From contig CP141140.1 of the NCBI GenBank assembly GCA_035235625.1, positions 63,480,581-63,544,580 on the forward strand: a stretch of 64,000 nucleotides of DNA, written 5' to 3'. This DNA is from Saururus chinensis. Taxonomy: Eukaryota; Streptophyta; Magnoliopsida; Piperales; Saururaceae. A model generated the notes under the pieces. It saw nothing but the letters and a program-made list of their open reading frames with translations, searched no databases and was not told the DNA's origin. Positions 3,776 to 60,755 of the stretch are shown in pieces. The translations under genes and the position numbers were made by a program. Position 1 is the first letter of the stretch, and each line of letters starts with the position of its first letter.

Positions 3776-3876
3776 GGCGGTTGATTCGCAGGGGAGATGA
3801 TGCCAGTGGGACTTACTGGGATTCAGCAACTTGGTTTGGTCCAACTGGCGTCATCTTCCTGGCGAATGCAACCGCC
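3776..3876 (+). ncRNA. MIR4376/MIR391-like microRNA foldback, copy A
   Basis: A strong hairpin is visible. The 5' arm (3,776-3,808) pairs with the 3' arm (3,844-3,876) over about 32 nt with two single-base bulges and a few wobble pairs, leaving a loop of about 35 nt. The predicted mature RNA is on the 5' arm at 3,785-3,805 and begins TTCGCAGGGGAGATGATGCC. From memory, Arabidopsis miR391 reads TTCGCAGGAGAGATAGCGCC and tomato miR4376 has the core CGCAGGAGAGATGATGCTGG, so this copy has one A-to-G change in the seed-proximal core. Members of this superfamily repress autoinhibited Ca2+-ATPase (ACA10-type) mRNAs. A CT tract and a likely intron follow (3,974-4,158). Expression is not shown by sequence, and the family name is an inference from similarity. 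Confidence 0.75.
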
Positions 3877-3922
3877 CCTGATGTTTCAGATTGTTGCATT
3901 CAGCTTCTCATAGGATAAGAGA

Positions 3923-3926
<4 letters not shown>

Positions 3927-3954
<28 letters not shown>
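3927..3954. repeat. (CT)n microsatellite 3' of MIRNA copy A
   Basis: A run of CT dinucleotides lies about 50 bp after the hairpin. A similar CT-rich run follows MIRNA copy C (about 11,075-11,092), which supports common ancestry of the two loci. Confidence 0.9.
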
Positions 3955-3955
<1 letters not shown>

Positions 3956-3973
3956 CGCCCCCCTGGAGAAATG

Positions 3974-4158
3974 GTAAGTGAGCCCACTGCATTTAGAGTA
4001 AAATTGCAGACTGTAAATAACTAGTTATATATATATGCTGGTAATTAAACAAAGGCATGCAAGAGAAGAAAGATAGTCTCTGAAATAGAAAAGTTGGAGT
4101 TGATGCAAGCCTTCCATAACAGAATTTTTGAACCTGAGATTTTGTTTTTGTGTTGCAG
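3974..4158 (+). other. Putative intron in primary miRNA transcript A
   Basis: A good donor (ATG|GTAAGTG) and a good acceptor (TGTTGCAG|AT) bound 185 bp of AT-rich sequence just downstream of the hairpin. The acceptor and the first bases after it (ATTTGTCAGGGGC) resemble those after MIRNA copy C (CTACAG|ATATGTCGGGTGC at 11,151). Splicing is inferred. Confidence 0.4.
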
Positions 4159-4199
4159 ATTTGTCAGGGGCGAATAGCGGATCGACTCGAGCTTTTCCA

Positions 4200-6340
4200 A
4201 TTAGGTGTTTCTGTTACGAAGAAATAAAAAATTGTTATAATTGTTCCACATCTCCTTTCCAGTATATGTCGAATCAATAAACTTTTTATAATATATATTG
4301 GCCTTGTGCCCAGAATCCAAAAGCTGTGAGCAGATAACGTATACTATAGTTTTTTTATTTTAGAGTTTTATTGTAATTGTTTATTGCAAATTACTTTAAA
4401 GCAAGGGGATGCCAATTGATAATACATGTTCCTAATACTCATTTAATGATTATTTTTAGTTTAGAGCTGTCCAGACCCATAAGATTTTCACGAATATATG
4501 AACTCCTGACTGAAGCCAGGTTAATTGTTTCAAATTGAATGAGTGGGCTTTCATTTAATCCGCAAGGTGCAACTTAGGTTAATGTTGTTAAGTAACCAAG
4601 TTTTGTTTGGGTGACCAAAAGTGAAATGAGATTGTTAGACCACGGAATTAAGAGGATAATGATTCCCCTACTTCACTTGCTGTCTAAAAAAACCTTATAC
4701 TAGGTTAGAGTAGCATGCAATTAAAAATATATCTGACGCTCTCATTTCTTCTCTTTTTGCATAGTAAAAATTTTTTTTCCCAAAGAAATTTAAGGGGTTG
4801 TTTGGATGGAGATTCATGAGCATGATTCTTTTAAAATTAAGTATAAATCCCTTAAATTACGTTTGGATGTAAATATTCTTAAATGTATAAAATTTATAAT
4901 AAATTATTAAATTCATTAAGATTTGTGGTTAATTTTTATGTTTCCATGTAATCTAATCTGGAGGAGATTCACATAATTTATCTACAAATATTTTATAAAT
5001 AAGATTCACATAATTACAGTACCAAATAATTTTTTTGTAAATTAAATTAAAATTTACTACACCTAATAACCTGTATCCAATAGCCCCTTAGTAGTTTGAG
5101 GTTTTAAAAACAACAGGTTTGTTATAATCTGGAAAGTTATTAGGATATGGCACAAGTATATTCACCTGATTAGAATCTTAGCAAGGACCCATCTTATTTG
5201 GGTCATCTCATCCATCTCACTAGCAAGGCTACTTGTCAACGTTGTTTAAAGGCCTCATATTATTGGCATTGCTTTGTATCAGCTAAAGAAATGTCGGCAG
5301 ATATAGCAAAGACAAAATGATCACAAACTGGGAATTATATATCCAACCACAGAAGAGATAGAGTACCTATCATTGATTACAGCGATGTCCCAGCTGACAT
5401 TTGTAGAAAACAACTGGAGGAAACTTAAAATAAAAGAGTTTTATATTAATTAATACAATATTGTTTTGCAAACGAAAATTGTGTAAACAGTTGAACTAAA
5501 TCTTTTAAAAATTATTTCATTCCAAAATGTATTTTTATATGAGGATAGGCACGTGGGTCAGTTCCATGATGTTTGATGAAATACCGTAATTGTTTGCGGT
5601 CCCTTCGTGCTCGGTATGGAACATTTGTAAGACATTTTTAACTTAATTTAAATTTAGAAATATTGTAGGGCAAACAAGTTTGAATGATCGCCTGCCCTTT
5701 TATTAATGAGTGTGGTCGAATCTTAATTTGATGGCTTGTGATGCTTGGCTCACATTGAGTACTTCTTATTTTATGACAAGTATCATGTGAGTTGTCCAAC
5801 ATACCACATAAGCCAAAAGCGATTTTCTCTTCAATTTATGAGTCCAAGAAGGAGAAAAGAATTCTCTATATCCACCATCATTATTTTATTCCATTTTCTC
5901 AATTGAAAAAATACTATGCAAATCACATACAGATAATCCAAAGTATCGGATTTTTCTTGCTCATGATTACTCGACTCTTTCTTGCCTTGATTTGATGTTT
6001 GTTAATTAATAAATGCGATTTTTTTTTCATTTTTTTCCTCAGTTCTTTGGCGTTAGGTAATCTAAGATTCTCAATAATATGATATATAGCTTCTGATGGT
6101 TGAGTTAAAAAATGATGTAGCTCGCTTTTAATCAAGCTATTTTTTTTTCTTAAAAAAAAGTATCTCAACATGCGAGGGTGTGTGCCTTGCTCTATTCATA
6201 GTTCCCGGATATATAACTAAATGCTTAATTGACTTGGGGGACCAGCACTCCACTAGAAGCCAAATGAACCTAATTAAGGAAAAGTTTATCTTTCTTGGGC
6301 ATAAGAGTGCCTAACCTAGTCTAGGTCAATATTATTCTAT
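4200..6340. other. AT-rich intergenic DNA
   Basis: No gene recognised. The small ORFs at 5,792-6,171 on both strands lack domains. A segment near 4,797-5,090 starts and ends with TGTTTGGATG/CCAATAGCCCCTTA-like sequence and may be a decayed MITE, but the ends do not pair well. Confidence 0.5.
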
Positions 6341-6351
6341 ATTTCATATAG

Positions 6352-6778
6352 GGGTTCGAACTGAATGCAACTCGAACTGAGATCGGCTCGAACTAAATTC
6401 AACTGGGCCTTGAATTAGCTTAAGTCGAGTTTGAACTTACGCTGATTTAAGTCGGGTCAAACAGATCTCAACTTGGATCTAATAAAACTCAAGGTTGGGC
6501 TCAAATGTAATTTACAAATTATAATATATATAATCTATATTAATTAGGCTAGATTATTGTAAAAACTTAATTGCATGAAATGTCAAGCCTATACCTGAGT
6601 TTCTTTCATTGGATATTAAAATTTGAGTCGAGCCTCAAGTTTGCTGATCGAGTGGAGTTAATTATATTGAAAATTTTGAGCCTTGTTTGAGTTTGACTTG
6701 TTCGAGTTGGCAATTCAATTTTCGAGCTTGAACTTAGTCAAAATAATACTCTGACTCAACTATACTCGTTAACACCCC
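6352..6778. mobile_element. Possible hAT-like MITE
   Basis: The segment is dense in ACTCGAACT/GAGTTCGAG-type motifs on both strands, starts GGGGTTCGAACT and ends CGTTAACACCCC. The ends pair imperfectly (GGGGTT and GGGGTG on the two strands). This composition is typical of short hAT-like non-autonomous elements in plants. Neither target duplication nor exact ends are certain. Confidence 0.4.
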
Positions 6779-7615
6779 AAATAATAGGTGTTACGGACTA
6801 TAACCATGGTAACATAAGAGCATGATTAACCAAGATGTTAAGAATTTGTTATAGAATTTATAGGGCCCTCGTTTAATCAACTCTGTATGCATATATGTTG
6901 GAATGGAACTTTGGGGTAAAGTTTTTGATTCCGATGATAAAAATTTTAGTTAGTTCATACAGGAATTGTACTTTTAGCACCACCAAGCTTCCAAATCCTT
7001 TTTTATTACCTACAAAGTTAGATATGTTTCACCTGGACAAATAGAACATAAAATTATCTCCATGAATTCCACAAAAAGTCTGGAACACATGTTTGCATTC
7101 CCCAATATGATTTACCTGATCCGCTTCCATTTAATTAATAAACTTGCTATGAACCCTTCTATCAATCCTTTACTCGTTACAAATGTGTCCTCATTTTTTA
7201 CGGTTATTTTTATAGCCTTGCTTTGGATTCTGACTCTCCTCGGAGCCCGGTTGTTCTATCAAATATGTTGCTTGAATTTTTTCCAACAGCTTTTTTAATG
7301 CTACCATTTGTCAGAAAATATAAATTGAAACAGTGACATGACGCTGCTAATTAAGGAAGTTGCTTGATTCGTCAAGTAATCTGTGCTGCCTCTCTGAAGT
7401 TTATGCGTGCTTTAAAATCAGTTGTCACACATTGCATATAAAATAGATTTAGGGCTTAGGAAGAGCTAAGTTAGGGCTTAGGGAGCACCAAGGGCCAAAC
7501 AAGCTAAGTGCTTAACGGCTTCTCTCTGTAGTAGTAGGAAATTTAAAATCGCTTCAAGGTTAGGCTGCTAAGCATCCAAGTCAGCTAATACTTATGTAAG
7601 AATCCTGAAAATACA

Positions 7616-7718
7616 CTCCCTCTGTCCTAAAATAAGTGGCTCATTTAGTTTTTTAACATAAATTAAACTTAATTCATTTTAAAAACCAAATGGGGTACTT
7701 ATTTTGAGATAGAGGGAG
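7616..7718. mobile_element. Stowaway-like MITE
   Basis: Ends CTCCCTCTGTCCTAAAATAA and TTATTTTGAGATAGAGGGAG form long TIRs of about 25 bp. TA follows the right end. At 103 bp, nearly the whole element is stem. Confidence 0.85.
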
Positions 7719-8133
7719 TATAAGATTAAAATTTTCAATAGTGGTGCTTATTAGCTAAGATAATAAAACCTTAAGGCAAGTGATCTTTTCTTTTTTATGC
7801 ATTATCGCAGTGTTAGATATGACACAATCACAACTTGCATATGTAGCAAAATAATTGCTTGACAAAAAATGTCTTTAAAACTCCAACCTATTCAGCGACC
7901 CTCATTATAGCCTGAGAATGACACCATGAGCATCATCAAATAGTAAATAGCAAAAGAATCATCAATATTTTTTTGTCACAAAAGGAATCATTAAATTAAT
8001 TGTACTATAATATTGGGTACCTTTCACCATTAACTTAATTAGAAGAATGACAACTGATCTTGGCTGGTTGTGGACTAAATGGAGTACCATCCACATGCCA
8101 GTACTTCTACCTTGTTATTATCGTTATTATATA

Positions 8134-8215
8134 CTCTCTCTATCCTAAATTAATAGTTCCATTTTTAATTTATTTTAAAAAATCAAATAGAACTATAAAT
8201 TTGAGACGGATGGAG
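8134..8215. mobile_element. Stowaway-like MITE
   Basis: Ends CTCTCTCTATCCTAAATTAA and AATTTGAGACGGATGGAG pair as TIRs, with TA on both sides. It is 82 bp and lies only about 65 bp upstream of the TATA box of MIRNA copy B, so it forms part of that promoter region. Confidence 0.8.
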
Positions 8216-8280
8216 TATAATTATCCATCTGCCGGCTAGTCTTTAGCTTTGCTCAACTAGTATTGTCTGTCATGGCGCTT

Positions 8281-8288
8281 CTATAAAT
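8281..8288 (+). promoter_or_regulatory. Putative TATA box of MIRNA copy B
   Basis: CTATAAAT lies 65 bp before the hairpin base. MIRNA copy C has TATAAA 62 bp before its hairpin, and the following bases are also similar (TATAAATTAGCTGCC versus TATAAAGGAGCTTCG). The shared spacing suggests a conserved core promoter with transcription starting about 30-35 nt before the foldback. Confidence 0.5.
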
Positions 8289-8345
8289 TAGCTGCCTTTC
8301 TAACCCTCGAACCACACCTCCACAGGTAAAATACATGCATGTAGT

Positions 8346-8436
8346 GGCGGTTGATTCGCAGGAGAGATGATGCTGGCCAGCCTTGTTTAGAAGTACCTTA
8401 CAAGCCGGCATGGTCGCTCCTGTGAAGACAAGCGCC
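8346..8436 (+). ncRNA. MIR4376/MIR391-like microRNA foldback, copy B
   Basis: The 5' arm (8,346-8,377) and 3' arm (8,404-8,436) pair across about 32 nt with four or five mismatches or wobbles and a 26-nt loop. The predicted mature RNA at 8,355-8,375 begins TTCGCAGGAGAGATGATGCT. Apart from the first bases it equals the remembered tomato miR4376 core, making this the most canonical of the three copies. The basal stem GGCGGTTGATTCGC is identical to copy A. A putative TATA box lies 65 bp upstream. A 61-aa ORF on the opposite strand overlaps the hairpin and is taken as chance. Known family targets are ACA10-type Ca2+-ATPase transcripts; a target in this species is not shown. Confidence 0.75.
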
Positions 8437-8439
8437 AAT

Positions 8440-10880
8440 GCTGTGAATATAGATCTCTGGGACGTTTAGAGCTAAAATCTTGGTTATCTCATTTAGCCCG
8501 AACAACAAAAAAGAATCAGGTGCGTTTTCTTTCCCCAAGTCATTAGCCTGGTGTTCTCAAACCAAAGGCGACTAATTAATGTTATTTTGTTGTACACCAA
8601 TATTGGTCACAAATAGGGGCGCTTATAGTACTTTTCATGGTTTAATTTTCTCAATCTTTGATATTTAAGATTATATTACATTTTTTCAATGAAAAATATT
8701 ACGATATATCTACACATGTTTCTTTGATTTTTATTCTGAATATGCTAAACTGCATGTTGATGATGCAGCACAACAATAACGCCATGATGCTATTTATGGT
8801 GATCGGTGATTATTTACATTCTACTTTCTCTTTGAAAGGTGAATATATATAAGTTGGTAATTATTTAAAAAAAAAGTATCTATGGGACTCTTCTATTGTG
8901 AATGTTTTAAAATAGTGTAATTAGGTTGATCTTCAGTTTACCTTTTGGATTTCATATTTGACTTACTTATGATCTAGGGTTTGCTATTTTGATTTCTTGT
9001 GGCATTAGACCCTTAGATTTACGAGCTTTTGGAGTTAATTATAAAGTCATGCTAAATTTAAGTCATCATGTATGAAGTCTGACTTGAAAAGCTAACTAGG
9101 ACTTGAGGACTAGAGTTTATGTGTGAAAATGGAGTTTTAAAAAGAGCCCTATTTATATGAGCCCGAGTTTATGCCTAACCATGTGAGCCTTGGTATCTTG
9201 TGTTGTCCGATCAAAATTTGACGATGCATATAACTTTAGGCATATATTATTTTTGCCAAAATCCGACGGCAAATCCTATATAGGGCTTCACAAGAATTAA
9301 TGGTCTAACCTATATTCCCAAATAAAAAATAATAAAAGTTTAACCTGTAAAGAAAAATATGATGATAAATCATGGGTTATTTGTTTTTCGTTTGTCGTGT
9401 GCATTTTATTTCCTTCATTTTTTAGCTTTTGGAAAGAAATTTTTTGACTATACCTAAATAGAACTAAAATCCGCTATTGAAAATTAGCGTTCATCAGCCA
9501 TTGATGGCTCAGAATAGACGATGCATACTGTAGCGCACCAAATTTGTGATTTTGTGCTACATATATAAATTTTTAAAAAAAATTAGCCTGCGCTGGCCAT
9601 CCTCTAAATATTTTGTTACAGCATGATTAATTGATTCTGGACTACAAACAGCTGGTAAAACTTACAGCAGCTCCGTTAGTAAAACTTTTGAGTCCATCTA
9701 AATGTAATAACTGCCGAAGTTGATAAGCAAGGAGAAAGTTGATGCGGATCTATGGAACCTGTCAATTTCAGCTGACTGCTGAAATGTGGTCTGGGGCCCC
9801 TCCATTTTAATCCTGATTGCGGCATGGGATAATAGGCAACTCGTTGCTCAACCTTTTCCCACATTATATGCATGTCTTCAGCCTGTCATAGAATGCTCAT
9901 TATTGTTTTATTCCCACATGGTATAAAGACAAGCACTTGGGCAAAAAAATCAAACATCATGCGTGCCAAATTGAAGACTTGAACAGAATAATGCATGTCT
10001 CTACTCATAAGTATAATTGGAGTACCTTGTTGTAAACCGCAGTACTACTGAAGGCAGATATGTGAGCTCTGTGATAGTAGTCCATGTGATCCTTGAAAGG
10101 ATGCATGGCACTCGAGACTCCACGTTTAGCTTTTGTGAGCTACAGGCGAGGACAAAATGAAAAAGCGAAGTTGGGATGCAAATTCAATGTATGCGGAACA
10201 TCCTTTTATTGATCTCTAGGAAGCAAAAGAAGAAGAAACCCTAACACTTCATCCATCAATATGCTCCCCATAATTGAGGACGTAACCAAATAGTCAATGC
10301 CGTTGCTACTTGTCACTACAAAAACACAAGGGCTTTCCTCTTACTGGCAGGCAAAACTTGTGGAAGCCAGCTCTTTCATTAGCAAGACAGACAGAATTGT
10401 CCAAATCATCAAATATGACTAATATTGACAGTGCAGATCCAGTTGTACCTATGTGAAAAAGTTTAGACAAGTATTATCCAAACAAAACAAAAAGTTTAGA
10501 CATGGTGAAGATCTCAATGCCGTTATGTAGAGCATGTCGTTATCAATAAGGACTATAAAGTGATAGATCTAGCTAGGACTGTATAAAGAAATCATGTTGA
10601 TCATCTACTAAAATTCCTTAATGATGAATTGGATGTCACTATACAGCTAAGTATGAATATGACTTCAACTTTAATCAAGAGTTAAAAGATTATTTTCAGA
10701 ATTTTAAGATTGTTGTATTGTGAATATATATGCCTCAAGCAACAAGATAACATATAAATGAGCTGGCATTGGTGACATTTGCATCATGAGCTTGGCAAAA
10801 TGACATGATGTTGTTGGCTCTGTCCACATGGAATAATCTTATCCGTGTCGATATATTATTGGGTATTCTTAAGAGAATAA
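8440..10880. other. Intergenic DNA between MIRNA copies B and C
   Basis: AT-rich, with no ORF carrying a recognised domain. CACTACAAAAACACAAG at 10,316 resembles a CACTA terminus, but no partner end was found. The rest shows nothing identifiable. Confidence 0.5.
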
Positions 10881-10882
10881 TC

Positions 10883-10889
10883 TTATAAA
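10883..10889 (+). promoter_or_regulatory. Putative TATA box of MIRNA copy C
   Basis: TTATAAA lies 62 bp before the hairpin base, matching the arrangement at copy B (65 bp) and sharing downstream bases AGCT and a following T/C-rich stretch. Confidence 0.5.
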
Positions 10890-10944
10890 GGAGCTTCGTT
10901 TTTCATCCTACTTCACCATCATATATGTTTTAAGCTACATCCAT

Positions 10945-11040
10945 GGCGGTCGATTCGCATGGGAGATGATACCAGGTTTTGGCATGCTGTTAATTTCGTC
11001 TCCCTGCCGGTGGCATCATCTCCTTGCGAATGCAATCGCC
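10945..11040 (+). ncRNA. MIR4376/MIR391-like microRNA foldback, copy C
   Basis: The 5' arm (10,945-10,974) pairs with the 3' arm (11,011-11,040) along the full 30 nt with one bulge and about three mismatches, leaving a 36-nt loop. The predicted 5'-arm mature RNA (10,954-10,974) begins TTCGCATGGGAGATGATACC. It differs from copies A and B at core positions, so its target range may differ. The 3' arm (TGGCATCATCTCCTTGCGAA) is closer to the complement of the canonical miRNA than the 5' arm is to the canonical sequence. A CT-rich tract and a likely splice acceptor at 11,150 follow, as in copy A. Confidence 0.7.
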
Positions 11041-12680
11041 CTCTGATGTCCCTCTGCTAGTTTTACCTCTTGGACTCTCTCTCTCTTTCTCTATATATAT
11101 ATTAAACACTTTTGTGTTACTAAAATAAGCATTTTTTTGTTTTGCTACAGATATGTCGGGTGCTCTTCCAGAAATCAAGCATGTGGAGGAGCCAAATGAC
11201 GTAAACATATAGATCCCTGCGAAAGATGCTTGGGTCTTACTTTTAGTTGAAAAGCAAATCCCCAACAAAGACATACTCATATCTCATTTAGTTAATTTAA
11301 TTGGTTCATCCTAGATTGTAAATGTTAGAATAGTTTGATTACCCAAAACTCCTACTTAATGTTTGAATAAACCGCATTTTATGGCAGTGATATAGTTCTG
11401 ACTTCTCACATTCTCCTTCATTATCTCAATATTGTCTAATGGATTGTAAGTTTTCGGCTTGTAACTTACCCACCTCAACTCAAATCTGCTGGTGCAGCTC
11501 CACCTGCGGACTTCATCAGCTGTTGATGGGCTAAAATTGACGGCGCCGGCGGACATAAAAGCTCAGAAAAATTGTACTACGGGTAAAGATTCTGAGCGGT
11601 TCCGCGTGCATGAACGACCTGGAACCATCAACTGCAAGTGAAACTTCACCGGCCACTTCAATGGGAAAACTTCACTAGCAGATTTGAATTCCACCTGAAG
11701 AGCATCCTGTGACTGTAAACTTAATTGACTCAGTGTCTTTGTTGGGAGCCCGTAGCCACCGTATATAGTGTATCCGTGCAACTTACTAATTTCGGATTGA
11801 AAAATAATTTTCTGATTACTTACCATGACCACAATGCATCACTATAAGACAAGTAGAGAGGTGAACCTCAACGTATTGGATCCCGTTTTTCTCACTATTC
11901 CTTAGTTCCAAAGTATTGGTAAGAAAACCCGATCAGGCTAGACAAGTCCTTTCCGATTTGCTTAATTTTCAAATACCCACAAGCTTTATCCACAAAGTGG
12001 CAAGACAGTTCCAACATTGGCCGATGGGAAACAGAACTCTGGAGTTTCAAAGAGTGCAGTGCCCACAGGCCACAACTACAAGAAAAGAAGCTACAAGGAT
12101 ATATCTCTCGCATCCATGGGAGACAATAATGACCCTCTATATGTTTACCTATTAAACATTTTTTCTACCTGTAAACAACTCAAGATATCCAGATTCACTG
12201 CCAGAAATTTTTTTATGGTGTGAAGCGCAATACCATAAAAAAACATGGCGATGATACCAGTGATTTTTCCCAAATAAACCCATTATGCAAGAACAACAGA
12301 ACATAAGGCCCACACAAACTATTTACACACTATTTTTCACCTAATATTTTTTTATAATAAGATATAACTATCCCAATTTCATTTGCGAAATTTCAAATTT
12401 ATTCCATCCTCCTGAGCCTCAAGGTATCTTTTGTTTTCAGCCACTACCAAGGCCGCTTCCAACGGCTGCGGAAAGGTGGAGACTAAATTAAAAAAAATAA
12501 AACTTAGAAAGAAGGCTGAACCCTAGGGTTAATTTTATATATTTTAAAACATTAAATAAAAAAGGTATTTTAAACTTTTACCTTTGAGAAAAGGTGTTAA
12601 CAACTTACAATATGCTTGCCTAAGCAATCCATAAATGGGTTGTTAAAATGAGCCTATAAGACAGATTCCTCAAAAAATTA
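11041..12680. other. Downstream region of MIRNA copy C, no gene recognised
   Basis: The putative 3' exon of the primary transcript begins at 11,151. Minus-strand ORFs of 66 and 89 aa (11,356-11,832) lie close together and have ordinary composition, but I recognise no family. They could be a gene remnant. Overlapping ORFs at 11,895-12,223 on both strands show no domain. Confidence 0.35.
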
Positions 12681-12682
12681 TA

Positions 12683-12759
12683 CTTCCTCTATCCCATATT
12701 AATAACCTTATTCTTTATTTTAAAAAAATAATATAAAGCTATTAATGTGGGAGAGGGAG
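12683..12759. mobile_element. Stowaway-like MITE
   Basis: Ends CTTCCTCTATCCCATATTAA and TTAATGTGGGAGAGGGAG pair as TIRs and are flanked by TA on both sides. The element is 77 bp and is almost all stem. Confidence 0.8.
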
Positions 12760-13199
12760 TATAAGTTCACGTGAATCAGTTTAGGAATTAAAGGAAACAG
12801 CCATAGCCATCTTCCAGATCAGTTAGCATCAATTTCATCATGTACGTAATGTTTTATGAGTACTCGGTCGTAAATAACGTCATTCAGCTGGCTGCATAAG
12901 CTGGAAATAGAGTTAGGAGGCCAGGTAGGATGAAAGCCACAGCCTATCAGCCTCTACGGGAACCATGACTTCTACAAATCAACCAAGCTAAGGAACCGGT
13001 ACTTGGGCTGATTTGCTAAAAACTTTGAAGTTGTATAACATGAAGAGAGAAATAGAAACTGCACATTCAGCCAAAAAACAAGAAAATGTCAATCATGTGG
13101 CCATGAACACTCGTTTTGTTTGGCTTTACTTTTTGGGGTCCTCGTGGATTTGACTAAAGAAATGGACACTCTGGAGCACATTCACTGTATTTTGTCATG

Positions 13200-13392
13200 A
13201 CTTTATATAACTTTTGGCGACGAACTTGTCCCAAGATTCTCCTTTTCTGTGCATGACTTTATCACTATCCGGCTGCAAGCAAGCAGTCTCACTTTTTCTT
13301 TTACTGAAACTCCATAAGTCTCTTTTACCCCATAATTATCATGCAAGACAAGGAGAATCTTGGGACAAGTTTGTCACCAAGTTGTATAAAGT
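13200..13392. repeat. Long near-perfect foldback, candidate young MIRNA or siRNA locus
   Basis: An arm at 13,200-13,256 and an arm at 13,339-13,392 are inverted copies of each other at roughly 85-90% identity, including an uninterrupted shared core AACTTGTCCCAAGATTCTCC. The loop is about 82 nt. Unlike a MITE, the arms have no terminal TA and no known TIR motif. Long, highly similar arms are what an inverted duplication of a gene fragment would give, which is one route to new MIRNA genes. It may also be an unrecognised MITE. The source gene is unknown. Short ORFs overlap it without recognisable domains. Confidence 0.6.
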
Positions 13393-13679
13393 AATGACAT
13401 TGCTTATAGGGGACCAGTGTAGCACTAGAAGAGTGTTGTAACACCATTTCCAAATGTCTTGGAGAATTGCAGGCTGCTATGGAAGCTCTTCAGCAAATAA
13501 CATAAATAAGATGTTAAATGAAGTTCTTGGGAGTAAGACAGAGATCATGCCGCCCGGTATAAGCCAGAAATGCCGGCTTCTAAAAAAGAAAGCCCTTGAA
13601 GTTGAACACAGAATTCGACACCGTTTTAGCATGGAGGAAAGAAGGGTTTCAAATTATTTGAATGTGAAAGGTAAATTAT

Positions 13680-20129: not shown

Positions 20130-23100
20130 CCAACCCATTAGTAATGTGACTGATTTAAAGCATAACTTTCAATATGCTTGGTCACTTTTATCCCTAAGAT
20201 GGTTTCAACTTCACCAAAGTCCTTTATTTTAAAAATAGAAGTAAGCTACCTCTTGGTTTCAGTCACACCAAATATGTTAGTACTCAAAATCAATTTGTCA
20301 TCAACATACAAGCACACAATTACAAAATAATCATTAGTAGACTTAGTATAAATGCATTTATAAGCACTATTATGTCTAAATCCACTAGATAAAATGACGG
20401 TATCAAAATTTTCATGCCATTGTTTGGGTGCTTGTTTAAGTCCATACAGAGACTTCACCAACTTGCACACTTTGCTTTTATTACATGGAAGGATAAATCC
20501 TTCTGGTTGTTCTATGTATACTTTTTCATCAAGGTTACCATTTAGAAATGCAGTTTTAACATCCATTTGATGAATGTGTAATTTAAATATGGATGTTAAT
20601 GCAAACAATATTATAATAGGAGTAATTCTAGCAACATGAACATAAGTATCAAAACAATCAATCCCTTCTTTTTGTTTATAACCTTTTGCTACTAATCTAG
20701 CTTTAAAGGTGCACGATGAACCATTGAGATTGTATTTCCTTCTAAATACCCATTTGCAACCAATAAGTTTTGAACCTAAAGGTAAGTCTACTAAGACCCA
20801 AGTGTTATTGGACATTATAGAGTCCATCTCATCGTTAATGACTTCTTTCCAAAAATTAAAATCTCTAGAGGTCATAGCTTCACTATAAGCCTTAGGGTCT
20901 TCCTTTAAATTAAGAGTGATGGGCATTAGGTTAACAACATGCTCTTTATCTCCTTCTATTAAAAAAATAATGTGCTCCGGGGATATGAAGTTTGGATTAA
21001 GTGATTTTTTTTTCTAGGTCTTAGACTCTATCTAAGTTTACTTGGTGGGTTATAAACTTTCTCAATTTCTGTAGACTTATCTACTTCCAACCTTTGAGGG
21101 TCTTGACATTTAAAATTTGAAATAAAAGTCATTTTTAGAAACCCTACATCTCTAGATTCAACAATCACATTAGATTCTAAGTCTAATAATTTGTAGGACT
21201 TGCGATGCTCAGCGTATTCTACGAAAACACATTTCAAGGCTCTTGGATCTAACTTGGTCCCTTTAGGACCAGAGACCCTATAATAAGCCACACACCTCCA
21301 CACTTTGAGATATGATCAATTAGGTTTTCTTCCCCTCCATAATTCATATGGACTTTTATGAGTCTTGTGTGAAGGAATCTGATTATGCACATGACAAGTG
21401 CTCATCAAAGCTTCTCCCTAAAGATTAAATTGTAACTTTGCATGCATCAACATGGAATTCACTATTTTTACAAGTGTACAGTTTTTCCTTTCAGCTAAAC
21501 TGTTTCGTTGTGGTGTATATGGTGTAGTCAGCTGATGAATGATGTCAAATTTTTTACAAAAGTTTGAAAACTCATTTGACAAATACTCTCCACCTTGATC
21601 ACTATGAAGAACTTTGATTTTCTTTCCTATTTAGTTTTCAACATTTGATTTGAAAATTTTGAACATGGAAAAAGCCTCATCTTTTGTTTTCGGAAGATAA
21701 ACATAAGTATATCTTGAGAAATCATCGATAAAATTGATGAAAAACTTTTGGCCACCGTGAGTTAAAACACCGTTCAATTCACAAATATCAGAATGAATCA
21801 AATCCAAAATTTTAGACCTTTCGTCAACCTTTAGAAAATGTTTCTTTGACGTTTTGAATTGAATGCATGTTTCACACTTATGGCTATGATTATGATCGTA
21901 AGAAATTAACCTTAATGTTCTCATATCATTCATAGATTGGAAATTCAAGTGTCCTAATCTACCATGCCATAGATCAAAAGAGTCCACAAGATAAGCAACA
22001 TCAACTTTATTTTCATTCAAACTGAATTTAAGCATCCCATTACAAGAGTAGCCCTTTCCCACAAAAGTTCTTTTCTTTGACAAAATAACTTTGTTAGATT
22101 CAAACACAATTTTAAATCCTTTCTTACAGAGTATGTTGGCTGAGACAAAGTTCTTACTTGTGTCAAGGACTTGAAGAACATAATGAGAGTGAGTTTCTTT
22201 CCCGAAGTGAAGTTGATTTCCACAACCCATTTACCAGTGACTTTGGCTTGGTTTTGGTTTCCCATTTGAACCTCTTGGCTAACGGTTCCTTGATGTAGTC
22301 CTTAAAAAAAAACTTGTCTTTATAGACATAGACCGTAGCCCCCGAGTCAAGCCACCATCCCGAGTTAGAGTCTACCATGTTGATTTCAGCAATCATGGCC
22401 ACAAACTCAACTCCTTTAACCATGTTTGCACTTTTGGAATCTTTGTCAGACTTCATGTGTCTACGTTCTCGAGCATAATGCCCCTTTTTGCCACACACAA
22501 AGCAAGAAATATTCTTTCTCTTTAAACTTTGGTTAGGGTTATTCTTGAAATGAGGAGTGCCTTTTGTCCTTTTATAAAGTTTTCGGTCCTCCACATTTAG
22601 AGCATTGGTCCTATTTTGAGAATCATCATTTTTCTCCCTCAATCGGGATTCTTCCTCAAGGCGCAAACTCCTTTGAATTTGCTTTAATGTAAAATTCTCC
22701 TATTTGTTGATGAGATTTTTTGATAAACTTTCCATGAATGTAGAAATTTCACAATAATAGCTCCAACTTGAAATACTTCCAGGAGGTTTAGATCAAGAAC
22801 ACTCATTTGATTGACTAGAAGCTCGAGTTCATGACATTGGTCAAGAATCGGCTTAGAATAAACCATCTTATACTTTAAATATTTTGAAAACAAATATTTG
22901 TTTATACCTTGCTCTTCCACCTTATATTTGAATTTCAGTGCACTCCATATCTCCTTGGCTGTAGCTTTTTTAGTATAAGTATTAAAGAGGATATCAGAAA
23001 GAGTGTAGTGAATGTGACTTTGACACAAGAGTTCATCTTCTTCACGCTTCTTTCTTTCTTCTTTTGTCTTGTTGGTATCCTCATCTTTGGGCTCAGAAAA

Positions 23101-23300
23101 TAGCTCCAATTTTGGATCAAGAATGTAGGAGATCTTTAAGGCAGTGAGAAGAAACATCATCTTGTCAGCCCACAAGTGTAGTTGGAACCATCGAATTTGT
23201 CATGTTTGACAAGATCCTAGTTCATGATTTTGACGGATGTCATATTTGATTCTGAATCCATGATGACGATAAATAATTCCTTAAAATTGTTGGATGCGAC
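20130..23300 (-). mobile_element. Ty1/copia retrotransposon fossil (gag, protease, integrase, part of RT)
   Basis: Read on the minus strand, the parts appear in copia order. A gag domain lies at about 23,175-22,690. A zinc knuckle (CFVCGKKGHYARERRH) is near 22,490 and a protease site (WWLDSGAT) near 22,350. The GAG-pre-integrase motif (LWHGRLGHLNFQSM) is near 21,950, with integrase to about 21,300. Reverse transcriptase (IHQMDVKTAFLNGNLDE, SLYGLKQAPKQW, CLYVDD) runs from about 20,930 to 20,130. Integrase before RT identifies Ty1/copia. RNase H and the downstream LTR are not found here. The element is broken at several points and is an old, inactive copy. The lineage within copia is not resolved. 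Confidence 0.9.
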
Positions 23301-25682: not shown

Positions 25683-25756
25683 CATGGTGCGTGATGTTAT
25701 AAAAATGTACTCAGCATTGCACTCTACTTCAAGACTTCCACCTGCTCTCTTCAGTC

Positions 25757-26767
25757 ATGGCAGCTACCAATGATTCTTACATTGGCCAGCGAGGAAAAGA
25801 TGAAGAACTACAAAAAGAAGCTGAAAGCCAAAGCCATGAAATCAAATCAATGTTGTCCACCCTTCCAAAGCGAAAGGGTTGGAATCACCCACTCTTATAC
25901 AAGTATAAAGGTGTCTGGCTCTATCCAGACAGATTTCCGGCCCTCCTGCGTCACAGGGACTTCCTTCCCCGTGACTCCGATTTGTTTCTGGCCACCTCAC
26001 AGAAAGTGGGTACTACTTGGCTCAAGGCCCTGGCCTTCACAATAACGAAGAGACACCAGTATTCCGTCTCCCAGCACCCCCTCCTTGCTACCAACCCTCA
26101 TGAGCTGATCACGAATTTTGAGATCATGAGCTACGGCAACAACCAAGTCACAGACTTCTCCAGCCTCCCCTCGCCTCGACTCATCCAAACCCACTTCCCC
26201 TACACACTGCTTCCCCAGTCGGTGAAGAATTCCAACTGTCGAATGGTTTACATGTGCAGAAACCCAAAAGACACATTTGTGTCTGCATGGAAGTTCTTCA
26301 GCAAGTTGAGGCCCAAGGAGATGGGCGAGCTCCCATTGGAGGAGGCCTTTGAGATGTTCTGCGGTGGGGCTTCTCCGTATGGCCCCTACTGGGATCATGT
26401 GCTCGGTTACTGGAAGGCCAGCCAGGATAGCCCTGACAAGGTTATGTTTTTGAAGTACGAGGAGCTGAAGGAAAACCAGGAGTTTCAGCTGAAGAGGTTG
26501 GCACAGTTCCTTGGCTTCCCCTTCTCTGTTGAGGAGGTTAAAGATGGGGTAGTCAAAGAGATAATAAAGCTGTGTAGCTTTCAGAGTTTGAGCAGCTTGG
26601 AGGTGAACAAGACGGGCACTACAGCAGGTTTGATAACCAACAACCTCTTCTTTAGACAAGGTCAGGTTGGTGACTGGGAAAAGCATCTGACTCTTGAAAT
26701 GGCAGACAGGTTGGATGATATCACTCACCAAAAGTTTAGGAATTCCGGGCTTACACTAGATGGGTGA
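25757..26767 (+). CDS. Cytosolic sulfotransferase (SOT family)
   Basis: An intact, intronless 336-aa ORF, the usual length and structure for plant cytosolic sulfotransferases. These enzymes move a sulfonate from PAPS to hydroxyls of small molecules such as flavonoids, desulfoglucosinolates, hydroxyjasmonate or brassinosteroids. Motifs in order: 5'-phosphosulfate loop QKVGTTWLKAL (residues 82-92, Lys83), catalytic His146 in RLIQTHFPY, 3'-phosphate site CRNPKDTFVSAWKF (167-180, Arg168 and Ser176), and the C-terminal PAPS/dimer motif FFRQGQVGDWEKHLT (298-312). The start is supported by TCAGTCATGGCA and by an N-terminal length normal for the family. There is no signal peptide, consistent with a cytosolic enzyme. 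The loop reads SQKVGTTW rather than the common (Y/F)PKSGTTW; the key Lys and GTTW remain. Substrate cannot be read from sequence. No paralogue is in the window. Confidence 0.95.
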   Translation: MAATNDSYIGQRGKDEELQKEAESQSHEIKSMLSTLPKRKGWNHPLLYKYKGVWLYPDRFPALLRHRDFLPRDSDLFLATSQKVGTTWLKALAFTITKRHQYSVSQHPLLATNPHELITNFEIMSYGNNQVTDFSSLPSPRLIQTHFPYTLLPQSVKNSNCRMVYMCRNPKDTFVSAWKFFSKLRPKEMGELPLEEAFEMFCGGASPYGPYWDHVLGYWKASQDSPDKVMFLKYEELKENQEFQLKRLAQFLGFPFSVEEVKDGVVKEIIKLCSFQSLSSLEVNKTGTTAGLITNNLFFRQGQVGDWEKHLTLEMADRLDDITHQKFRNSGLTLDG

Positions 26768-39100: not shown

Positions 39101-39936
39101 AAGGCCCAGGTAATAAAATACTTTCTATTTGGTGACTTTGTCTGCCATCCCATAATATGATTGTACCACCTTATGATACTTTTCATTTTCCAATGCCGTC
39201 TAATGTTACTGTTGGTTTTTTTGGTTCAGTTGTATAAAACTTTTTTTTTATACTTTAATCAGGTTCTCGTCTTAGTACCTGTGGACTATGGAAGCAGAGT
39301 TCATCTTTAAAAATTTCATTCCCAGAAAAATACTTAGACATTGCACCTTCAGTCCTTGGTGCTCATCGTGGATTTGCTTCTAAGTCTGCAGCAAAAACTG
39401 TCGAATCTGAGAGCAAAATTAGCATTGGCCCACAAAAATCTGGATCAACTGAAGTTGATGAGAAAGATTCAGGTGTTGTGTACTATGGGCCCATCTCGTC
39501 AACCATCAAGAAAGTAAAGCTGCTATCACTCTCCACTTGCTGCCTATCTGTCTCTCTGGGCCCTGTTATAACCTTCATGACTGCACCAGAAATGAATGTC
39601 ATTGTCAAGGGTGCTGTGGCATCTTCAGTCATTTTCCTCAGTGCATCAACTACTGCTGCCCTTCATTGGTTTGTAAGCCCATATGTTCACAAGCTCAAAT
39701 GGCAACCAGGGTCGGACATCTTTGAGGTAGAGATGTTGTCTTGGTTGGCTTCTCACATCCCCAGAACCATCAGGTTTGCTGATATTAGGCCTCCGGAAAC
39801 TAATAGGCCTTTTGTGACATTTAAGGCAAATGAAAACTTTTATTTCGTTGATGCTGAGCATTGTCACAACAAAGCCTTGTTGGCCAGGTTGACTCCAGAG
39901 AAACCAGCTCATGAATCAGCTTTCAAGAACTTGTGA
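36134..39936 (+). CDS. TMEM70/TMEM186-like mitochondrial membrane protein (two exons)
   Basis: Exon 1 is 36,134-36,206 and exon 2 is 39,263-39,936, split by a 3,056-bp GT-AG intron in phase 1. Joined, they give 248 residues (747 bp). The N-terminus (MARAALLHLLRSRANQLTSR) is basic and lacks acidic residues, as in a mitochondrial presequence. The conserved start of the family domain is VYYGPISSTIKKVKLLSLS at residues 97-115. Two membrane segments follow at about 109-131 and 139-162, forming the hairpin typical of the TMEM70/TMEM186 family, then a basic/aromatic tail with FVSPYVHKLKW. Animal TMEM70 helps assemble ATP synthase and complex I in the inner membrane; the plant role is inferred. The exon 1 start is the first ATG after a purine-rich leader. 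An extra small exon inside the large intron cannot be excluded. Confidence 0.85.
37979..38236. repeat. 132-bp tandem duplication in the TMEM70-like intron
   Basis: A unit containing ATTAACAAAGCTCTGAC and CAACCTACCACAGCTATTTG is present twice in a row (starts near 37,979 and 38,111) with only a few differences. Confidence 0.9.
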
Positions 39937-42128: not shown

Positions 42129-45100
42129 ATGGGCAAGAAAGCTAAATGGTTTGCTTCTGTAAAGAAGGCTCTATACCCTCACTGCAAAGATAAGAAGGGT
42201 CAGGTCTGGACTTCTCACTCTAATTCATTGAAGTTCATGTTCGTTTTAGTTTGAAAAAGTCACTGAATGGAGCATTCCTGCATGTGTATAGGAGTCTAGT
42301 AAACCGAAGAAGAAATGGGGATTTCGCAAACCAAAACCTGGAAATCCTATTTCTTCTTCTGTTGAAACATCCCCTGCCATACTGGTACACCCGAATGAAG
42401 TGCATGACCAGGCTCACTCTGTGGCTCTTGCCGCTGCTACTGCTGCTGCTGCCGATGCAGTTGCTGCTGCTGCCCAGGCAGCTGCTGAAATCGTGCGGCT
42501 CACAACTGTGACAAGAAATTCAGTCAGATCAAGAGAAGACGCTGCTGCCATCAAAATCCAGACAGCTTTTAGAGGTTACCTGGTATGACACTATCCCTTC
42601 ATGAAAGGAATGCTTATGGATTTAGGGGCATTTTTATTTGTTAAATTGTTCGAATCATAGGCAATTTTGCATCATTTTTTCCTCAAGGATAGTGCAACAA
42701 TTTGAGCTCAAACCTGTTTTGTTTACAAATTTTCATAAACATCATGAACCTTATGTTAGGGTGAAGAAGAAAATTTTCGTTTGTAGTTATACAAGTCCAG
42801 TGATTCTTTTGAGTTGATGGATTGATGAAAACAGAAATGTTAAAATTCCCATAATTTTCACTTTCATTACGAAATATTTTGACCATAGTTTTGTAGAAAA
42901 AATTGTTGAACATTTTTTACTTAATACTTTTAGGGAGCTGTCATCTCTCTCTCTCTCTCTCATGGTAATTTGACTTTATATTAACACTGGACATTCATCC
43001 GTATTCAAACAATCAAAGCACTGGCATTTACAGACATTTCTTATGTTGAGTTCCGATCTTGAACCTTGGTGAACATATGAAAATTAGTAAAACATACGAA
43101 ACTTGCACTTGTAGTCTATGACATTTCTACTTTTGCCTCGCAGTTTTGCTGCTGCTGCTTGTTCATGTTTTGTGTAACTTTTTGGGCTCCCTTCCCTTTG
43201 AAAACTAAAACAGTAATTTTGAATGAATTTAATCCTTGTAATTTCAAGGCAAGAAGAGCTTTGCGGTGTCTGAGGGGGCTTGCTAGATTGAAAGTTATCA
43301 TGCAGGGAACTTCAGTCAATCGCCAAGCTAAAACCACTCTGCGTAGCATGCAGACATATACCAGGGTACAATCACAAGTTAGCTCAAGAAGGATCAGAAA
43401 GTATGAGCATTATCAGGCTCTCCAAAGTCAACTTCAGTTAAAATGGGAAAAAGCTTTGAAAGCTTCTGTAAGTAATCTGTTTGAGGATCTGGCATTCTAT
43501 CTCCCGGTCATGATTCTTTTTCTGTGGGCATGTATTTGTGGGGAAAACCTTCCTAAATTAATGGGTTTAAGGTAACTAATAAATTTTAGACCAAATTGCA
43601 AATAAAAAGAAAAGACCGAATTAGTGAATAAATGTTGCAAAAGTAAGTTGAAATCACATCATTATTTGGCTAGAGAAGCTCTATTTTACAAGTTATTTAG
43701 TTTAGAAGAAAGCTAGGTATCACTATAGCCACTATAGCAAGCTTGGATGATATCATGGGTCATCACAATTCTTGTCTAGTTTGCAATGCTATTGAATATG
43801 AGCCTTCAGAAAGATGGGGTTGTGATGTAAATAAAAGACAAAATGTTTTCTCGAAGGTAAGATATTATTTTTTGGCTAGCATGTAGAAGGCTATGAATTG
43901 ATCAAAGCTCAAACGCGTGCTTATGACTTGTAATCATGAAATTACTAATGAATTCTGGTAAATGTTGGTATTGGACATGATTTTCCCTCTACATGTTCAG
44001 TATTATAATTCCCCATGGGAATACAGTGTGGATTAAATTTTCATCTATACAGTAACTACCTGATAACTTATTTACTCTATCAAGTTCATTTGAGTTCATT
44101 TCGTTTTTCTTTTTCTAAGCGGAAGCATGTTTTAACTTTAGTTGATATGATAATTAGGTATTCTCTGACAGACTGGCATCTGAAGACTGAACTCAACTTT
44201 CCTTTGATAGTGAATAACAACACTTCCCTTATTATTAGATTCAAATTAGATCTTTTATTTAGAGGTCTCTCTCACATTTCTGATAGAACTTGCACGTTTA
44301 GTTGTTGAATTTTAAAGTGTTTGTGACTTAATATTTTTTTTCTGGTTGTATTTACTTGCGGTGAAAGGTATAAGTTTTGTCTGATGCCCCTGCCCAGACA
44401 TTTGTAGTCAAGGTGTGGCAATTTTGACATAATGCATTCACCATTGTTTATTTGCACATAAATCTACGAAGACTATGAGACTGCTATTGACAGAAATATT
44501 TCTTAGGATCTGAAGAATGCCAACAGATAGCAAGGGAAATTACTAATTAATGTTGGAAATTTGCCATGACAGAGGAAGCTATTCTTTTTCCAAAATGAAA
44601 AATGATTTGTAAGGTATATAATAGAACTTATATGAAACAGATGGGAGATGAATGGAATGAAAGTTTGCAATCCAAACAGCAGATTGAAGCAAAGCTTATG
44701 CACAAGCATGAAGCTTCCATTAGAAGAGAGAAAGCACTTGCTTATGCATTTACCCACCAGGTAGCCCCATTTGTTTCTTATTACTTGGAACTTGTGGTAC
44801 CAATATTGTAGGATTAGTATGCTAACAAATAACTGTCTCAGCAACAATGGAAAAGATCCAACCGAGCTGTCCAGCCCATGTTCACTGACCCAATCAATCC
44901 ACACTGGGGCTGGAGTTGGCTTGAGCGTTGGATGGCTGCAAGGTCATGGGATACTTCTTCTGTAACAGACAAAGATTTAAATGATTCTCAGTCATCAGTT
45001 AAGAGTGCATCTCGGAGTTCAGTTGGAGAAGTTTATAAATCTTATACTCGCCGTAATCTTAATACTGATAAATCCTCCCCAAAGACCATCAAATCTTGCA

Positions 45101-45501
45101 CAGCAATGAGCTATATATCTCCCTTATCATCAACACCTATACCAAAGGCTTCATCATCGTCTACAGGGAAGAGCAAACTAGTGAGCCTGCAAGGTAGACA
45201 AACAATGGAAGAAGATGACTCAGGGAGTATGATGAGCTTGCAGTCAGAGAAATATAGGAGACACAGCACAGCTGAGTCATCAACAAGAGAGGATGAAAGT
45301 CAAGCCAGTTCCCCTGCTGTACCAAGTTACATGGCTCCCACTGTATCTACAAGGGCTAAATCAAGACTGTCAAGTCCACCAGCGGAGAAATATGAGACAC
45401 CAGACAAAAGGTCAGTGGGTACAGCAAAGAAGCAGTTACATTTCCAGCCTTCACCAGGAAGGCCTAGCAGAAGTTCAGGCTCGCCGAAGGTCGGAAGTTA
45501 A
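42129..45501 (+). CDS. IQ67-domain protein (IQD), calmodulin-binding, five exons
   Basis: Exons 42,129-42,203, 42,292-42,582, 43,249-43,467, 44,641-44,760 and 44,842-45,501 join in phase 0 at every junction, giving 1,365 bp and 454 residues. The N-terminus MGKKAKWFASVKKAL is the usual IQD start, followed by a basic KPKKKWGFRKPKP. An alanine-rich helix (residues about 65-85) precedes the IQ67 domain (about 107-170), which includes AAAIKIQTAFRGYLARRALR. The IQ67 domain is split by an intron exactly between GYL and ARR, a hallmark of the family. Conserved blocks EAKLMHKHEASIRREKALAYAF and WGWSWLERWMAAR follow, then a Ser-rich tail with VPSYMAPTVSTRAKSR (DUF4005-type). IQD proteins bind calmodulin, microtubules and membranes as scaffolds. 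The start resembles the IQD2/3/4 group, but orthology is not settled. The stop codon lies within a 31-bp tandem duplication. Confidence 0.93.
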
Positions 45502-53289: not shown

Positions 53290-53527
53290 AAAGGACAAAA
53301 TCACGTTTAAGTTGATTTCATCCTTACAAAGGATGAAATCGGTTTATCGATGTAAAAAACTTAACCCGATTTCGTCTTTTAGAATGACGAAATTACCTTA
53401 AGGCGATTTCGTCCTTCTAAACGATGAAATCCTTGAGAACAGGATTTCGTCCTTTAAAATGACGAAATCATGTAACTTGGTGAAATGTGGCTCACATACT
53501 GATTTTGTCATTTTAAAGGACAAAATC
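53290..53527. repeat. Array of five GATTTCGTC...GACGAAATC hairpins
   Basis: Five short palindromes lie in a row, at 53,314-53,340, 53,368-53,393, 53,405-53,431, 53,443-53,469 and 53,511-53,527 plus following bases, each with arms near GATTTCGTCCTT / AAGGACGAAATC and a 3-5 nt loop. An extra right half-site is at 53,290-53,302. Spacing between starts is 37-68 bp. The arms show compensating changes (for example GATTTCATCCTT with AAGGATGAAATC). The array lies just beyond the 3' end of the MULE/plant-mobile-domain gene and may be subterminal sequence of that transposon. Confidence 0.85.
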
Positions 53528-53857
53528 AAATTAGAATTTTTTTAAAAAACCATTTTACAATAACTTTAACACTTTAACTGTTCATTCATTCATTCCCACA
53601 CATTTCATGCATATTGACATCAACTAATGAAAACATACATAAAATAAAAATATTTATTAAATATATTATATCACATGTTGAAAAAATGTTTAGTTTAAAA
53701 GAAATATATAACAAAGCTAATATCACAATCTCCTACGTCCTCGACTTCAACCTCGACGGTGTTGTATAAGCTCCTCCGCATGATCTACCTGCTTCAGCTC
53801 CGGCTCTATCTCTAGCTCTGGTTCCTGATGCAGCTCTACCTCTAGCTCCTAATGGGG

Positions 53858-60409: not shown

Positions 60410-60755
60410 ACTCATACCACCGTATGCATACTCATACAACATACGCATACTTGTACGACCTTACTCGTACAATCATATGCTTACTCATACAGCTTACACA
60501 TACATGTACGACCTTACTCATACAATCATACTCGTACACATACTCTTACAGTCGTGCTCATACTCATACGCTTACAGTCCTGCTCATACTCATACGCTTA
60601 CAGTCGTGCTCACACTCATACAGTTGTACTCATAATCGTACTCATACTCTTACAGTTGTGCTCATACTCATACGTTTACAGTCATGCTCATACACACTCT
60701 TACAGTCCTGCTCATACACATACAGTCGTACTCATAATCGTACACATATCAACGA
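60410..60755. repeat. Degenerate CTCATAC/TTACAGTCGTG minisatellite
   Basis: Irregular repeats of GCTCATACTCATACGCTTAC and CAGTCGTACTCATAATCGTA occur, with unit length about 26-36 bp. His/Thr/Tyr/Ser-rich open frames in all three forward frames are artefacts. Confidence 0.85.

Follow-up and report, generated by a model that had tools for sequence, protein, structure and literature searches.

The plant microRNAs (miRNAs) miR4376 and miR3627 are the closest described relatives of the locus analyzed here. In the excerpts of the papers cited, a relation among miR390, miR4376 and miR7122 is proposed (PMC5902766) and miR5225 is described as a relative of miR3627 and miR4376 (PMC6404619). miR4376 is tied to the Ca2+-ATPase ACA10 and to phased small interfering RNAs (phasiRNAs) (PMC4211545, PMC5902766), grape miR3627/4376/5225 are assigned the 5' region of Ca2+-ATPase10 (PMC6404619), and ACA8 is listed for both miR3627 and miR5225 in Malus hupehensis (PMC4523022). 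The name miR4376 also occurs for Liriodendron (PMC3445533) and in a date palm paper (PMC4633500), and the tomato sequence printed in PMC6464174 is identical to that of pepper can-miR4376 in PMC3667847. The Musa mac-/mba-miR2 is a predicted miRNA printed as a novel family with one locus per genome (PMC3852598); the printed sequence reads like miR4376 (CCGCAGGAGAGAUGAUGCCGCU), and the group therefore seems to be present in a monocot under another name. Here, a 64,000-nucleotide stretch of the Saururus chinensis genome (assembly GCA_035235625.1, contig CP141140.1, positions 63,480,581 to 63,544,580 of the forward strand; the window) is analyzed for three hairpins, hp1, hp2 and hp3. They are likely an old tandem trio of MIRNA genes belonging to the miR4376/miR3627 group of flowering plants.

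Three kindred hairpins and the age of the cluster

The hairpins are 91-101 bases long with start-to-start spacings of 4.6 and 2.6 kb. The minimum free energy (MFE, kcal/mol) of each was compared with 200 dinucleotide shuffles per locus to give the z scores.

3776-3876 (+): hp1, MIR4376/MIR3627-like foldback; MFE -66.5, z -10.2; Rfam matches below cut-off
8346-8436 (+): hp2, MIR4376/MIR3627-like foldback; MFE -48.1, z -7.3; Rfam MIR3627 match below cut-off
10945-11040 (+): hp3, diverged paralogue of hp1 and hp2; MFE -41.4, z -3.9; 28/31 bases identical to hp1

The original prediction had put three foldbacks at exactly these coordinates, and the MFE test bears this out, with folds far below the shuffles. 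No shuffle folded as low as the real hairpin at any locus (0/200 each), and adding 5 bases on each side gave z scores of -8.6 for hp1, -6.1 for hp2 and -3.5 for hp3. Strong foldbacks are common in this DNA. A scan of 6392 windows of 100 bases, moved in 20-base steps over both strands, found 27 distinct places at or below -38 kcal/mol, hp1-hp3 among them, and foldback energy was rejected as proof of a MIRNA on this ground. Scan windows as low as hp2 number 34, and 79 are as low as hp3. The -66.5 of hp1 is matched by 0/6392 scan windows, an unfair comparison because hp1 was framed exactly and the scan windows were not; the scan window that covers hp1 reaches -51.9 and ranks fifth of the 27 places.

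Kinship was measured on the arms. The basal stem GGCGGTTGATTCGC predicted to be common to the three is present in 14/14 bases in hp1 and hp2 and in 13/14 in hp3. If 3 mismatches are allowed, 25/100 shuffles contain at least three matches to this 14-mer, a number within chance by itself. Over the 31 bases from the hairpin start, hp1 matches hp2 at 28/31 and hp3 at 28/31, and hp2 and hp3 share fewer than 26/31. None of 526 control 31-mers (600 drawn from the + strand, 74 of low complexity dropped) recurs at 28/31 at a distance of more than 500 bases. The 3' arm ends of hp1 and hp3 are identical at 19/21 positions. BLAST between loci returns E values of 1.2e-7 (hp1-hp2), 4.4e-7 (hp1-hp3) and 2.1e-4 (hp2-hp3). 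The loops are barely alignable while the arms are kept, and the 20 bases immediately outside the hairpins agree at 2-6 of 20 positions between loci. A covariance model built from hp1-hp3 gives six matches in the 64 kb, which are the three hairpins, matched by construction as its own sources, and their antisense strands; no fourth copy is found in the window by this model at E values up to 10.

Pairing is kept in 92.4% of the stem cells of the consensus structure, a value reached by 4/500 shuffles. At seven of the 36 stem pairs both partners differ without loss of pairing (0/500 shuffles). With three hairpins, from which the structure itself was predicted, this gives mild support. By the conservation criterion for plant MIRNA genes, the arms are kept more than the loop and flanks and pairing is maintained, as judged from one window and three sequences. 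The basal stem GGCGGTTGAT is unlike the Rfam MIR3627 consensus yet occurs in all three hairpins, which therefore indicates local copying. The proposed same-strand tandem duplication is supported by arms common to all three that include this stem.

Flanking sequence was used to judge age. When about 3 kb surrounding each hairpin was compared by BLAST, the matches beyond the hairpins were limited to MITE-like (miniature inverted-repeat transposable element), AT-rich or short stretches, a 501-base match of overlapping regions to themselves being disregarded. Four of the six pairs of flanks have mildly raised chained scores, which were equaled by 6 of 1000 random pairs for the upstream flanks of hp1 and hp2, 10 for upstream hp1-hp3, 23 for downstream hp1-hp3 and 35 for downstream hp2-hp3; the upstream hp2-hp3 (181) and downstream hp1-hp2 (497) pairs carry no signal. 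Against 200 shuffles the counts are 0 for upstream hp1-hp2, 0 for upstream hp1-hp3, 0 for downstream hp1-hp3, 7 for downstream hp2-hp3, 113 for upstream hp2-hp3 and 121 for downstream hp1-hp2. The case for duplication is not rested on these scores because low-complexity runs contribute to them. The duplications look old because the flanks hardly align: the copies appear to have arisen long enough ago for the flanks to fade, and a recent birth looks unlikely. Local MIRNA birth by tandem duplication, as first suggested, was right in kind, with an age that looks old. Three short elements near the hairpins may bear on origin or transcription.

8447-8462 (+): stretch downstream of hp2 resembling 11207-11222 (14/16), a possible relic of a duplicated flank
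8282-8287 (+): TATAAA, possible TATA box by motif spacing, 64 nt upstream of hp2
10884-10889 (+): TATAAA, possible TATA box by motif spacing, 61 nt upstream of hp3

The first likeness may be due to chance, the downstream hp2-hp3 score being reached by 35/1000 random pairs. No TATAAA lies within 100 nt upstream of hp1. The 61/64-nt spacing is equaled by 12/20000 random triples, with a 55-70 range that was picked after seeing the data. By eye, CT-rich runs follow hp1 (4157-4175) and hp3 (11150-11170), each succeeded by ...CAG, as at the end of an intron, and by a stretch that is alike at the two loci (ATTTGTCAGGGGC and ATATGTCGGGTGC). These stretches possibly belong to spliced precursors of common origin.

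Family assignment and predicted products

Twelve mature sequences printed in papers (excerpts, as above) were compared with the window without gaps. Identity to tomato sly-miR4376 is 20/22 for hp2, with 20 consecutive bases, 17/22 for hp1 and 15/22 for hp3. The exact 20-mer of tomato miR4376 lies at 8357-8376 in hp2 (0.00 expected in 100 shuffles), and the hp2 22-mer differs from the tomato sequence at its first and last base. The best score outside the three 5' arms, on both strands of the whole window, is 15, reached at an unrelated place (56153, +) and on the antisense strand of hp2. A mature core, CGCAGGAGAGAUGRYRC, which is our own consensus of the printed sequences and is misfitted by one grape sequence among them, occurs exactly on the 5' arm of hp2, whereas hp1 departs from it by one base and hp3 by two. 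The 5' arm sequence TTCGCAGGAGAGATGATGCT given in the original prediction is exact in hp2 and has two mismatches in hp1 and four in hp3, where the word "near" was loose.

The Rfam family that best fits each hairpin is MIR3627 (RF03600), aligned over the full model (1-89) on the same strand and with the same hairpin ends. The scores are 33.1, 32.9 and 17.9 bits for hp1, hp2 and hp3 against a cut-off of 64, and the basal stem departs from the consensus. When 4227 families were run against the full window, MIR3627 had E values of 0.0016 for hp1 and 0.0017 for hp2; hp3 is not listed at E values up to 1 in that scan, and its single-locus MIR3627 E value is 0.11. The runner-up + strand family for hp2, MIR6201, is far below at 19.3 bits. 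hp1 also scores 31.0 bits with MIR1432 (RF04057; cut-off 90), 30.6 with MIR1858, 25.6 with MIR391 (cut-off 70) and 19.7 with MIR5225 (cut-off 72), all below cut-off; the MIR1858 score probably just reflects how long and clean the stem is. MIR4376 of tomato and pepper (RF03636) resembles the trio in the 5p position of the product, in the 20 consecutive bases of hp2 and in hairpin length (88 model positions versus 91-101 bases). It differs in covariance score (24.4, 17.5 and 17.6 bits for hp1, hp2 and hp3 versus a cut-off of 60) and in the mature positions detailed here. Musa miR2 matches hp1 and hp2 at 18/22 each, four bases off in both cases, and is printed with one locus per genome versus three here (PMC3852598).

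The predicted link to miR4376/miR3627 is carried by hp2, through its run of tomato bases, and by the end-to-end, sub-cut-off MIR3627 matches of hp1 and hp2. hp3 joins by kinship to hp1 and hp2 alone, because its own mature match equals that of an unrelated place. The tie to miR390/miR391 that was also proposed is weak, the highest identities being 12/20 for miR390 and 13/20 for peanut miR391 as printed. Exact searches gave no 24-base pattern in viral contigs and no 20-mer in bacterial and archaeal genome contigs, as expected because the sequence is a plant one.

The register of the predicted products follows tomato miR4376, and their partners were computed from the fold.

3786-3807 (+): hp1 predicted 5p product, 22 nt; register inferred from tomato miR4376; 17/22 to sly-miR4376, 18/22 to Musa miR2
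3846-3867 (+): hp1 predicted 3p partner, from the fold with 2-nt 3' overhangs imposed
8356-8377 (+): hp2 predicted 5p product, 22 nt; 20/22 to sly-miR4376, 20 consecutive
8406-8427 (+): hp2 predicted 3p partner, computed from the fold
10955-10976 (+): hp3 predicted 5p product, 22 nt; 15/22 to sly-miR4376
11011-11031 (+): hp3 predicted 3p partner, 21 nt, from the fold; asymmetric 22/21 duplex

Plant MIRNA annotation tolerates up to 5 mismatches between the miRNA and its partner strand. In the duplexes predicted here, each strand leaves 1-2 bases unpaired at every locus (1 per strand in hp1, 2 per strand in hp2, 2 and 1 in hp3). The 2-nt overhangs were set by the script and hence are no test of the duplex. 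Relative to tomato miR4376, the guide has changed within the seed, at position 8 in hp1 and at positions 6 and 8 in hp3, and in both also near the 3' end. The perfect complement of tomato miR4376 served as a target proxy, and pairing penalties against it are 2 for hp2, 5 for hp1 and 7.5 for hp3. The literature text searched contains neither the core of the hp1 product nor that of the hp3 product.

Competing explanations and neighboring features

Several observations weigh against an old trio of the miR4376/miR3627 group. At curated cut-offs (MIR3627 64, MIR4376 60) Rfam matches none of hp1, hp2 and hp3. The lead of MIR3627 at hp1 is small (33.1 versus 31.0 for MIR1432 and 30.6 for MIR1858), and hp3 scores weakly with both MIR3627 (17.9 bits) and MIR4376 (17.6 bits), its 15/22 mature match being no better than that at 56153. 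A penalty of 7.5 implies that hp3 as it stands should miss the tomato-type target. Four of the seven double-changed pairs lie in a small apical helix of doubtful alignment, which leaves 3/31 in the main stem. Other targets are also given in excerpts, an amino acid transporter for apple miR3627 (PMC3446319) and a histidine kinase for peanut miR5225 (PMC5335773).

The competing explanation with most weight, which we nevertheless consider doubtful, is that hp2, perhaps with hp1, is the working gene and hp3 a decaying copy, giving a one- or two-locus family with a relic. It overlaps with the reading as an old trio of MIRNA genes, which does not call for activity at every locus. Of the three hairpins, hp3 ranks last both in fold (z -3.9) and in Rfam score (17.9), carries four mismatches to the common 5' arm sequence and is changed at guide positions 6 and 8. 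Its arm duplex is nearly fully paired (2 and 1 unpaired), however, and its 3' arm end matches hp1 at 19/21. The hp3 arms were kept while the loop and near flanks diverged, a pattern that drift alone should not leave. Placement of the trio in the MIR1432 branch, a family known from grasses, is improbable. The 31.0 bits of hp1 come close to the 33.1 for MIR3627, but no MIR1432 match to hp2 or hp3 is listed at E values up to 1, and hp2 has the CGCAGG start together with the body of tomato miR4376.

We give still less credence to the view that the hairpins are not MIRNA genes but a family of small transposons (MITEs) or inverted repeats that give rise to siRNAs. MITE-like palindromes do lie nearby (for example 7613-7721 and 8131-8218), the 27 places at or below -38 kcal/mol show how common such folds are, and grape MIR3627 is itself called atypical, yielding phased and antisense small RNAs, in an excerpt of PMC6404619. 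The hairpins, by contrast, number just three copies in 64 kb with no target-site duplication seen by eye, keep their arms while their loops diverge, and include in hp2 a published mature miRNA. A MITE was rejected on the count of just three copies in the window. Chance foldbacks with chance similarity deserve hardly any weight. The core is within chance at 3 mismatches and folds like those of hp2 and hp3 are not rare in the window, yet 28/31 arm identity against 0/526 controls, BLAST E values of about 1e-7 between loci and a 20-mer with 0.00 expected led to rejection of chance similarity. An old tandem trio of miR4376/miR3627-type MIRNA genes is thus retained as the likely reading.

Other features of the window lie outside the trio. 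The MITE palindromes at 7613-7721, 8131-8218, 12680-12762 and 53442-53528, which we take to be Stowaway-like, have sub-threshold Rfam MIR1120/MIR1862 matches, and the one at 8131-8218 ends 128 bases upstream of hp2. A long imperfect foldback at 13194-13398, whose arms resemble AAGGAGAATCTTGGGACAAGTTTGTC and which matches MIR821 below threshold, may be a MITE or a young MIRNA. A long open frame at 25703-26767 encodes a sulfotransferase domain that is almost complete (PF00685, E 4e-73) and is perhaps an intact single-exon gene. Coding stretches of TMEM70 type (39259-39936) and with DUF4005 (44833-45501, presumably IQD-like) are also present. The minus strand carries, at 20249-23199 and 57267-58271, Copia-type pieces, in which RVT_2 scores above cut-off and the zinc knuckle slightly below it, and MULE-like pieces with a plant mobile domain and SWIM zinc finger. 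Short-unit tandem arrays occupy 55103-55354 (20/40 bases) and 60515-60723 (26/52 bases).

Proposed function and meaning

The established route for plant MIRNA genes starts with their own transcripts, which are cut by DCL1 before the 5' U strand is loaded into AGO1. By this route, each of the three loci would be transcribed by RNA polymerase II as a separate precursor, and DCL1 would excise a 21-22-nt duplex from each. The 5p strand, starting with U, would be loaded into AGO1 and guide cleavage of the mRNA of an ACA-type Ca2+-ATPase; a 22-nt product would also give rise to secondary phased siRNAs. Judged by its sequence, hp2 most likely continues to produce miR4376 of the tomato type and retains the corresponding target. 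The changes at guide position 8 of hp1, at positions 6 and 8 of hp3 and at both 3' ends suggest that these two probably have weaker or different targets; they may have acquired other targets or be fading. A functionally split cluster, in which hp2 keeps the ancestral Ca2+-ATPase target and hp1 and hp3, with pairing still held, have gained new ones, is speculative and on balance unlikely.

Genes of this kind are ordinary, and finding three copies together is mildly unusual. In four plants 17-25% of miRNAs cluster within 10 kb according to an excerpt of a pear paper (PMC4233070), and clustering as such is therefore ordinary. Among the matches listed from the open-licence literature, none describes a tandem cluster with three members of the miR4376/3627 family. 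For annotation, Rfam curated cut-offs miss all three loci. Publications connect the family with the control of calcium pumps and with phased siRNAs. If expressed, the trio would be a compact case of MIRNA copies kept long after tandem duplication while their guide positions change. The split cluster, if true, would provide a natural series of guide and target change in the miR390-4376-7122 group at one place.

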